Assembly (NCBI RefSeq): GCF_900107635.1
Contig: NZ_FNRD01000001.1
Span: 310,001-374,000 of the forward strand
Length of the DNA stretch: 64,000 bases
Origin: Flavobacterium gillisiae
Lineage (GTDB): Bacteria > Bacteroidota > Bacteroidia > Flavobacteriales > Flavobacteriaceae
Reading direction: 5' to 3'
The position numbers and the translations under genes are program-made. Below, piece after piece: positions 1 to 1,997 of this stretch. Within the stretch, counting starts at the first letter, position 1; every line of letters begins with the position of its first letter. Under the pieces are notes generated by a model. The model was not told where the DNA came from. It searched no databases and saw only the letters and a program-made list of their open reading frames with translations.

Positions 1-712
1 CTACCAGTTCTGGAGCAATTTTATTAGTATAATCTTCTTCGATTACTTTAAAACCAATACTTCTTAGTTTATTAAAATAATCACGGCCATAAATGCGAAC
101 ATGATCGTATTGTCCAAATATCTTAGCACGCTCTTTTTGGTCTGTAATAGTATCGTCAGAAAAAGTGGTTTCTCTAGATAAATCTTGTGGAATTTGTAAA
201 ATGGCCATTCCGCCAGGTTTCAATACACGATACAATTCTTGCATTGCTTTAGTGTCATCTGGGATGTGTTCTAAAACATGATTGCACAAAATAACGTCGT
301 ACTGATTGTCTTCAAATGGCAAATCGCAGATATCTGCTTTTACATCTGCCAAAGGCGAAAATAAATCCGTAGTGGTGTAATCGAGATTTTTCTGGTTTCT
401 GAATAATTTATAAAATGCCTGTTCAGGTGCAAAGTGAAGTACTTTCTTTTTTACATTAGAAGTGAAAAAATCAGATTCTTCATTTAGAAACAGCCAAAGT
501 AAACGGTGTCTTTCTAAGGAAAGTGTACTTGGTGATAGGACATTGTTTCTTTGTGTTCCGTAGCCATAAGGTAAGAACGATTTAAAACTTTTTCCGTCAA
601 TAGGATCGGTAAATTTGTCCCCTTTCAAAGCTAAAGCTAAAACAGGTCTAGCGACATAGCTTAAACGAATAAGTAATGGGCGGGGGATGGTATTGAGTAT
701 TAATTTAAACAC
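1..712 (-). CDS. Class I SAM-dependent methyltransferase (3' end outside window)
   Basis: An open frame of about 237 codons runs off the left edge, so the C-terminus is missing. The middle of the protein carries the sequence VLHFAPEQ and, further on, DVILCNHVLEHIPDD and LKPGGMAIL. These are the post-I and motif II/III region of Methyltransf_11-type enzymes. The classic GxGxG loop is replaced by HFAPEQ. The substrate cannot be told from sequence. No in-frame ATG fits the N-terminus; the start is most likely GTG at 712-710, giving an N-terminus beginning MFKLILNTIPRP. That GTG lies inside the inverted repeat that bounds the neighbouring GxxExxY cassette (see findings). No SD-like sequence is visible. 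The family is confident, the exact function unknown. Confidence 0.85.
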   Translation of the reverse strand, partial: MFKLILNTIPRPLLIRLSYVARPVLALALKGDKFTDPIDGKSFKSFLPYGYGTQRNNVLSPSTLSLERHRLLWLFLNEESDFFTSNVKKKVLHFAPEQAFYKLFRNQKNLDYTTTDLFSPLADVKADICDLPFEDNQYDVILCNHVLEHIPDDTKAMQELYRVLKPGGMAILQIPQDLSRETTFSDDTITDQKERAKIFGQYDHVRIYGRDYFNKLRSIGFKVIEEDYTNKIAPELV

Positions 713-740
713 AGATTTCACAGATTTTCACAGATTTAAT
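709..740. repeat. Left inverted repeat flanking the GxxExxY gene
   Basis: This stretch of about 32 bp is built from three CACAGATTT-like units and is the near-perfect reverse complement of 1116-1148. Together the two arms bracket the GxxExxY gene almost exactly, ending at its stop codon on this side. Confidence 0.8.
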
Positions 741-1114
741 TATAAAATAACTCTTTTGTATTTTAGGCTATCCTCACCAAAATTCACTAATAAACCAATT
801 TTGTTTTTAGAGGCTGCAAGATAATTTAATGTTTGTTTTATTTCACCACTTGACAGTTGTTCAATTGCTTTTAATTCTAAAATAATTTCATTGAAAACTG
901 TAAAATCAGAAAAATAATATCTTGGTAAAACTATTTCTTTGTATGCAATATTGTATTTTTTTTCTCTTTCATAGGGGATGTTATTAGTCTTAAATTCATA
1001 TTCAAGAGCGTCACCATATACATTTTCACTGTGTCCTTTTCCAAGAATTTTATGGACTTCCATACATAAACCTATAATTTTATAAGTTTCATCTTTTAAA
1101 TAGAATTCTTCCAT
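740..1114 (-). CDS. GxxExxY family small protein (PD-(D/E)XK-like fold)
   Basis: This 124-residue protein carries the family motif GHSENVY at residues 27-33. A later D70...E80-L-K82 pattern matches the catalytic core of PD-(D/E)XK-like proteins to which the GxxExxY family (TIGR04256, PF13366) is assigned. The length of about 125 residues is normal for the family, and the function is not established. There is no signal peptide or membrane segment. The gene sits alone between map and a methyltransferase gene, and inverted repeats hug its start and stop. This suggests a separately acquired cassette rather than an operon member. It is intact, so probably still functional. Confidence 0.85.
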   Translation of the reverse strand: MEEFYLKDETYKIIGLCMEVHKILGKGHSENVYGDALEYEFKTNNIPYEREKKYNIAYKEIVLPRYYFSDFTVFNEIILELKAIEQLSSGEIKQTLNYLAASKNKIGLLVNFGEDSLKYKRVIL

Positions 1115-1115
1115 A

Positions 1116-1148
1116 ATAAATCTGTGAAAATTAGTGAAATCTGTGTTC
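1116..1148. repeat. Right inverted repeat flanking the GxxExxY gene
   Basis: This is the partner of the repeat at 709-740, with the core AATCTGTGAAA followed by GTGAAATCTGTGTT. It starts two bases outside the ATG of the GxxExxY gene. The two arms differ only by a few substitutions and one length difference near the middle. Confidence 0.8.
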
Positions 1149-1178: not shown

Positions 1179-1997
1179 CTAGATAACTAACGGCACTTTT
1201 CTAAACTCATCTTCTTCAGTACTTACAATTCCTAAGGCTTGATACACATAAGCAAATGTGGATAATATTTCTGGTTTACCGTCAATAAGCGCTACATCAT
1301 GCTCAAAATGAGCACTTGGTTTATTGTCGGCTGTGGTTATTGTCCAACCGTCTTTGTGCTGTTTGATGTTTTTAGTTCCCATATTGATCATTGGCTCAAT
1401 TGCAACTACCATTCCTTCAACAAAAAGTTTTCCACGACCACGTTTTCCGTAATTAGGCATTTCTGGATCTTCGTGCATTTTTTGCCCAAGTCCATGTCCA
1501 ACTAACTCGCGAACTACTCCGTATCCATGAGCTTCAGTATATTTTTGAATGGCATTACCAACATCTTCTACGCGATTTCCAGCTTTAAATTCACGGATAC
1601 CTACGTACAATGATTCTTTGGTGATTTGTAATAATTTTTTAGTTGCAGGATCTACTTCTCCTATTTCGAATGAGTAAGCATGATCTCCATGGTATCCATT
1701 TTTGTAAGCGCCACAGTCTACAGATATGACATCGCCACTCTTAAGAGGCGTATTGTTTGGGATTCCGTGTACCACTTGAGCATTCGGACTCATACATAAT
1801 GAGTTTGGGAAACCATATAAACCAAGGAAACTAGGGACAGCGCCATGGTCACGAATGAATTCTTCGGCTAATTTATCTAAATGTAATGTAGTAACTCCTT
1901 CTTTAATTTCAGAAGCAATCATTCCTAATGTTTTCGATACTATTAAAGCACTTTCGCGCATTAATTCTATTTCTTCGCGGGATTTAACTATAATCAT
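1179..1997 (-). CDS. map: Type I methionine aminopeptidase
   Basis: Cytosolic dinuclear-metal enzyme that removes the initiator methionine from nascent proteins. All five metal-ligand motifs are visible: Asp in SVDCGAY and in GDHAYSF (about residues 93-108), His in GHGLGQKMHEDP, Glu in AIEPM and Glu in AHFEHDVAL. The length of 272 residues is slightly above the usual 250-265 because of a short C-terminal tail. A TAnnTTTG box lies 20 bases upstream of the ATG, inside the gap to the TolC gene, so map probably has its own promoter. The call is secure. Confidence 0.97.
   Translation of the reverse strand: MIIVKSREEIELMRESALIVSKTLGMIASEIKEGVTTLHLDKLAEEFIRDHGAVPSFLGLYGFPNSLCMSPNAQVVHGIPNNTPLKSGDVISVDCGAYKNGYHGDHAYSFEIGEVDPATKKLLQITKESLYVGIREFKAGNRVEDVGNAIQKYTEAHGYGVVRELVGHGLGQKMHEDPEMPNYGKRGRGKLFVEGMVVAIEPMINMGTKNIKQHKDGWTITTADNKPSAHFEHDVALIDGKPEILSTFAYVYQALGIVSTEEDEFRKVPLVI

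Follow-up and report, generated by a model that had tools for sequence, protein, structure and literature searches.

The REPtron is the closest described precedent for the element reported here. In the portions of two accounts that were available, it is a gene for a RAYT endonuclease with flanking REP palindromes that have gene-less copies and co-evolve with the enzyme (PMC8266576, PMC3733652). Our element, a GxxExxY gene framed by inverted repeats (arms), resembles the REPtron of those portions in having one small endonuclease gene, flanking palindromic repeats, many dispersed gene-less copies, and a match between repeat and enzyme. However, its enzyme is of the PD-(D/E)XK type whereas that of the REPtron is an HUH Y1 enzyme (TnpA_REP), and its arms are triplets of an 8-bp unit with directional spacing rather than a GTAG-tagged hairpin; neither GTAG nor CGTC, nor their complements, was seen on reading the arms. 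By analogy the two may work alike, yet the element is no REPtron.

Other comparisons lie within the same phylum. Two Flavobacterium species are among the genomes with REPs in RepRanger (PMC12306157), and CGTC REPs include those of Bacteroidetes (PMC3733652), according to the available portions of both papers. Like the repeats studied here, these are short dispersed palindromes, some of them without a dedicated transposase; unlike them, they are tied to no nuclease gene in the same portions, and the words "nuclease," "transposase," and "RAYT" do not occur in the portion of PMC12306157 available. Since RepRanger lists Flavobacterium, some of the armed palindromes may already have been counted there without an enzyme. 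Insertion sequences and MITEs also have a gene within terminal inverted repeats and gene-less derivatives, but the GxxExxY cassette has no recognized transposase: a single ORF lies between the arms, with profile matches to PF13366 and TIGR04256 alone. The IS982-derived MITE described in the available part of PMC9769881 is different from GxxExxY cassettes. The open-licence literature, beyond which print may differ, yielded no account that links GxxExxY genes to repeats.

Architecture of the element and its predicted nuclease

The window, i.e., the whole stretch of DNA analyzed, comprises 64,000 nucleotides of Flavobacterium gillisiae (contig NZ_FNRD01000001.1, positions 310,001 to 374,000). The GxxExxY gene (740-1114, minus strand) lies between a left arm on its 3' side (708-738) and a right arm on its 5' side (1117-1147), both strandless features delimited from the inverted pair that they form and from reading of the sequence. 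The arms are 31 nt long, 94% complementary, and 378 nt apart; one base separates the left arm from the stop codon, and two bases separate the ATG from the right arm. The original prediction of inverted repeats that frame the gene and hug its stop and start codons was thus accurate to about one base in its coordinates, and the repeated units that it mentioned are more regular than described. Each arm consists of three 8-bp units, spaced 9 bp from outer to middle and 10 bp from middle to inner: CACAGATT at 710-717, 719-726, and 729-736 in the left arm and, from outside to inside, AATCTGTG, AATTAGTG, and AATCTGTG at 1138-1145, 1129-1136, and 1119-1126 in the right arm. The inverted-repeat score of 26 was reached by none of 2,000 dinucleotide-preserving shuffles (maximum, 14.5) and by 2 of 1,500 random stretches of the same geometry in the window, and those two may overlap the element itself.

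The element adjoins map (methionine aminopeptidase; 1179-1997, minus strand), which anchors the orthologous site in other genomes, and a SAM-methyltransferase gene (1-712, minus strand) that continues beyond the window edge; no cas genes adjoin the element in this DNA. Translation of the methyltransferase gene probably begins at a GTG (710-712) that is part of the outermost left-arm unit. In relatives with an empty site, this gene starts at ATGAAAAAACT, adjoining the map stop.

The 124-aa window protein matched PF13366 (E = 3e-33; 115 bits versus a cut-off of 22) and TIGR04256, the GxxExxY profile (E = 3e-38; 131 bits versus a cut-off of 35), and its score above the curated cut-off, GxxExxY motif, and D...ExK residues place it in the GxxExxY family. 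In an alignment of proteins picked for intact length, the active-site residues E30, D70, E80, and K82 were present in every one (79 of 79), and Q94 and Y98, presumably the motif named QxxxY that is common to Cas4/RecB-family nucleases, were kept in at least 90%. The median dN/dS was 0.078 (over the 161 of 200 pairs in which dS was unsaturated). The best structural match of the AF2 model (pLDDT 95.5) was SSO0001 (4ic1; Foldseek E value, 2.5e-4; Z, 9.9 over 98 residues), which we take to be a Cas4 protein, and the LHK and lambda exonucleases came next in the Foldseek list. The invariant active site, low dN/dS, and Cas4-like model point to an intact nuclease that is kept by selection.

The predicted fold and catalytic residues are shared with the Cas4/RecB-family nucleases SSO0001, LHK-Exo, and lambda exonuclease. 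Cas4 has four conserved cysteines for an iron-sulfur cluster, whereas residue 17 is the only cysteine of the 124-residue window protein. Sequence searches yielded no convincing solved relative of GxxExxY proteins. PMC8934634 mentions a gene to which two tools gave different names, cas4 and GxxExxY. Two other identities were considered and set aside: that of a known defense protein, for which there was no PADLOC match, and a phage or plasmid origin, for which the search returned no phage record, 8 plasmid records (all below 60% identity), and one viral_contigs locus.

Arms, repeat units, and protein clades at other GxxExxY genes

PF13366 occurs at five places in the genome of the window, that of the window included. 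Two of the others (L007 and L008) have clear inverted arms made of other units, with scores of 17 and 21.5; a third (L006) has weak arms with a score of 13, below the threshold; and the last (L010) is a truncated PF13366 gene with unit-like repeats on one side only. Within the genus, PF13366 was present in 50 of 61 genomes. The matches listed contained 158 distinct GxxExxY ORFs (two loci contribute two pieces each), 156 of them with enough flanking sequence, and inverted arms exceeded the threshold at 115 of the 156, leaving 41 below it. The threshold was the 99.9th percentile of shuffles, and it and the controls were derived from the first 98 of these ORFs, in which 68 of 98 had inverted arms versus 16 of 98 with direct repeats. 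The corresponding controls gave 1 of 96 for stretches 350 to 600 bp out and 4.7% for mismatched pairs of flanks. Inverted arms were found at none of 29 map genes, which served as a housekeeping control.

A scan of named genomes across phyla gave a similar picture in the best 80 of 532 loci, a choice that favors relatives of the query. Inverted arms were present at 46 of the 78 usable loci and direct repeats at 11, with 32 of 78 below the threshold for inverted arms; stretches 700 to 950 bp out gave 0 of 72, and mismatched pairs gave 2.6%. Among these best 80 of 532 loci, 27 of 47 from Bacteroidota had arms, and at least one armed GxxExxY locus was found in 13 of 16 named phyla, the phyla represented by a single locus being weak cases since many of the records are metagenome bins. 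Because orthologous elements were counted separately, the armed loci in these counts are not independent events. Most of the other GxxExxY genes analyzed are framed as in the window, as had been anticipated, although the arms themselves are not the same: units differ from one protein clade to the next, and it is the plan alone that they have in common. At two loci (L104 and L109), complete short palindromes in direct orientation lie on both sides of a GxxExxY gene, in the manner of a composite element.

The spacing of the units is also regular. In 68 distinct CRCNRATT triples from the loci collected, the intervals were 9 then 10 bp in 63, 10 and 10 in 3, 9 and 9 in 2, and 10 then 9 in none. 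The base-match autocorrelation of 115 upstream arms peaked at lag 10 (z = 10), with lags 8, 9, and 11 raised too. Triples of C[AG]C[AT]A[AG]G (n = 63) were spaced more loosely, 9 and 12 being the commonest intervals (17), followed by 8 and 8 in 9 triples and the reverse, 12 and 9, in 6. A directional spacing that recurs across loci would be the expected trace of a fixed protein footprint.

The unit sequence varies with the protein. Protein identity was correlated with arm similarity in the genus (Spearman coefficient, 0.453; 68 elements) and across phyla (0.442; 44 elements from the best 80 of 532 loci), and in neither case did any of 1,000 permutations reach as high a value. The units found in different protein clusters were ATTAAG; CATATAAG or CACATAG; CGCAGATT; CGCAAAG; ACGGATT; and CACGAATT/CACAGATT. 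This match shows that the gene travels with its arms. On its own it is no proof that one acts on the other, since joint inheritance would be enough to produce it. The two arms of an element resembled each other more closely than did the same-side arms of two related elements (similarity, 0.88 versus 0.76), in 229 of 243 pairs at 60 to 70% protein identity, 127 of 152 at 70 to 80%, and 33 of 75 at 80 to 97%. This hints at concerted evolution, a hint that is given no weight because the sample was picked for well-matched arms. A subfamily with CGCGGATT-like units (L079, L192, L229, L234, and L237) has a small TCGCTATCGCGA-type hairpin between the units, which is retained in both arms and in several copies.

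Turnover at the map site and gene-less copies

The gap between map and the methyltransferase gene was read in the 30 of 61 genomes with the closest Map, and classes were assigned by hand. There were 15 gaps with a GxxExxY gene (one truncated), 12 empty gaps, and 3 with other content; one nominally empty gap (L066) retains a single unit. The clean empty sites that had been proposed as a check are therefore present among close relatives. The filled gaps belong to two GxxExxY clades, each with different arms. On the map tree, the gene of the window is sister to the cleanly empty site of its sister species (support, 100/97). The tree required at least 5 changes between filled and empty on 27 rows and 13 changes for four states on 30 rows, with 11 of 27 inner branches too weak to draw. 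At this site the arms are gained and lost along with the gene, and in this respect the tiny cassette of the original prediction behaves as a unit; its movement by the nuclease is the part that we infer.

Two of the gaps hold other sequences. That of G057 (L070/L385) has a remnant arm followed by a gene for an AAA_21 (AbiEii-like) ATPase, together with a small gene that has no Pfam match, and contains no GxxExxY gene. That of G042 (L065) holds a different palindrome, of the CCTGCAAGG...CCTTGCAGG type.

Occupation of one intergenic site by elements of different clades, together with the Cas4/RecB-like fold, would suit a role in defense or homing, in which the nuclease cuts DNA that either lacks or contains the unit, the arms mark self or landing sites, and the element spreads by break repair. 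We consider such a role very unlikely. The occupied sites differ, with no common target sequence noticed in an unsystematic look, the cassette contains a single ORF, and PADLOC did not recognize the protein.

Several palindromes of similar units without a gene were found in the genome of the window (L004, L005, L013, and L027). In order to count such repeats, two strict patterns of tandem units were used, P1 (CRCNRATTN{1,2}CRCNRATT) and P2 (CGCAAAGN{1,5}CGCAAAG). P1 had 35 hits in the genome of the window, where the reversed control had 1, and as many as 362 in a relative; P2 had up to 155 hits per genome. Hits are not equivalent to elements, since an intact pair of three-unit arms yields up to four and the arms of GxxExxY genes are included; with nine GxxExxY genes per genome at most, these genes are nonetheless far too few to explain the highest tandem-unit counts. 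The places orthologous to two gene-less copies vary between species, and the junctions at these places, compared with one genome per species, are too diverged to read target-site duplications.

The tandem units are concentrated in genomes with GxxExxY genes. Median P1 hits per Mb were 6.3 in the 50 genomes with PF13366 versus 0.5 in the 11 without it (p = 3e-5), and the corresponding values for P2 were 2.3 versus 0 (p = 7e-5). The difference held for P1 and P2 alike when only genomes up to 3.8 Mb were compared (p = 7e-4), and the reversed-pattern control, tested for P1, was not raised. One genome without GxxExxY (G044) had 21 P1 hits nonetheless, and another of the 11 (G034) is 60% complete. 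Genome size was a strong predictor of both patterns; beside it and the counts of Y1 genes and of 23S_rRNA_IVP (IVP) genes, the number of GxxExxY genes predicted the hits (t = 3.5 for P1 and 3.7 for P2), and the Y1 count in the same model had t values of 3.1 for P1 and -0.6 for P2. When clades were entered separately, with clade presence based on the 158 ORFs among the matches listed, the best predictor of P1 was the CACRATT clade (t = 3.2) and that of P2 was the CGCAAAG clade (t = 2.5); noncognate terms were smaller but nonzero (c3, t = 2.5 for P1; c5, t = 1.9 for P2).

One observation had been named in advance as evidence against a cassette, namely arms at many places that lack a GxxExxY gene, and such arms are indeed widespread. 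Because they are concentrated in genomes with GxxExxY genes, we read them as non-autonomous copies of the element rather than as its refutation. They also bear on whether the arms serve regulation, as operators or an RNA panhandle for autoregulation, with the gene-less copies being leftover or recruited sites and mobility being minor. The arms adjoin the start and stop codons, the unit triplets are spaced as regularly as binding sites, and in the window an arm furnishes the codon at which the next gene probably starts, all of which would fit; gene-less inverted pairs at many places, clean empty sites, and the different elements at one site would not, and we regard an essentially regulatory function as quite improbable.

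Unrelated genes in similar arms and the possible source of mobility

The site orthologous to L005, one of the gene-less palindromes, carries in three relatives (L278, L282, and L286) a 23S_rRNA_IVP gene (PF05635) between inverted tandem-unit arms. Of 30 IVP loci (L301 to L330), 28 were usable, and inverted arms were detected at 19 of them versus direct repeats at 4, with 6.3% for mismatched pairs. The arm units were of several types, e.g., CTAAGATT, CTTAGACTT, and TTGTATA; a trial spacing count with one IVP unit had 3 triples only. PF05635 was present in 60 of 61 genus genomes. The IVP genes resemble the GxxExxY genes in encoding about 120 aa, in having inverted tandem-unit arms, and in occurring in the same genomes, but their product is an unrelated four-helix-bundle protein and their units are different. 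PF05635 resembles Avd of diversity-generating retroelements, according to the available part of PMC10053308. Either GxxExxY and IVP genes have convergently adopted a way of life with palindromes, or a common mobilizer carries both as helpers or cargo. That an unrelated protein has similar arms is the strongest reason for caution in regarding the nuclease as the mover.

Y1/RAYT genes (PF01797), searched in the 61 genus genomes, are the obvious candidates for such a mobilizer. At the 28 usable of 30 loci, flanking repeats above the threshold were inverted in 8 and direct in 9, and by reading were mostly of the hairpin type; P1 or P2 units were present in none of the 28 flanks examined. A Y1 match was absent from 20 of the 61 genomes, 13 of which carry GxxExxY, and some Y1-less genomes with GxxExxY had many tandem-unit hits (82 + 129, 53 + 52, and 23 + 53 for P1 + P2). 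A RAYT as the sole mobilizer of the arms was therefore set aside. Four Y1/RAYT genes (L398, L394, L401, and L397) have their own hairpin repeats, with GTAG after some of them, and coexist with armed cassettes.

It is also conceivable that some other activity, such as host repair, template switching during replication, or a transposase located elsewhere, moves the arms and that the GxxExxY and IVP genes are cargo selected for other reasons. This possibility gains from the two unrelated families, PF13366 and PF05635, in similar armed palindromes; from a map site that may be empty or hold a GxxExxY gene, another repeat, or a remnant arm with an AAA_21 gene next to it; from another site that may hold an IVP gene, gene-less palindromes of different units, or nothing; and from the correlation of the Y1 count with one of the two repeat patterns. 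However, it leaves aside that the unit varies with the GxxExxY clade and that the catalytic site of the protein is invariant, and Y1/RAYT, its most obvious agent, lacked P1 and P2 units in 28 of 28 flanks and is missing from 13 genomes (of 20 without Y1) that keep GxxExxY. On balance we consider it unlikely.

We favor, with a probability of roughly 0.55, the interpretation that the window feature is a REPtron-like mobile cassette moved by its own Cas4-like nuclease. Our confidence that armed cassettes and their gene-less copies are a real and widespread class with turnover is much higher. The cassette consists of a pair of inverted arms, with three to four short units per arm about 9 to 12 bp apart, which frame a single gene for a stand-alone Cas4/RecB-like nuclease or, when closed on themselves without the gene, form the short palindromes scattered in the genome. 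The nuclease may bind the unit triplets of both arms, whose directional spacing resembles a multi-contact binding site, and may cut or trim the DNA at or adjoining them. In this way copies with and without the gene would be cut out, duplicated, or placed in new intergenic locations, and host repair would complete the process. Binding and cleavage of the arms, and their movement by the GxxExxY protein rather than by another, are putative steps.

The feature in the original prediction is real and its nature was well guessed, yet its extent goes far beyond a local cassette. More tentatively, and at slightly less than even odds, it may represent an undescribed class of mobile element, in which iteron-armed palindromic cassettes that a stand-alone Cas4-like nuclease mobilizes, found in 13 phyla among the best 80 of 532 loci, are the source of large palindrome families, with the IVP (Avd-like) cassettes as a sister class. 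If so, GxxExxY and 23S_rRNA_IVP, two families long labeled as of "unknown function," would become repeat-processing proteins, and the common annotation "GxxExxY protein" would gain a testable function. Through the 9-then-10 spacing and units that differ between clades, the specificity of the protein can be tested directly. Part of the short interspersed palindromes in Bacteroidota and other phyla would be explained, and bacteria would have transposable elements that use none of the known transposase chemistries, an independent parallel to RAYT and REP.
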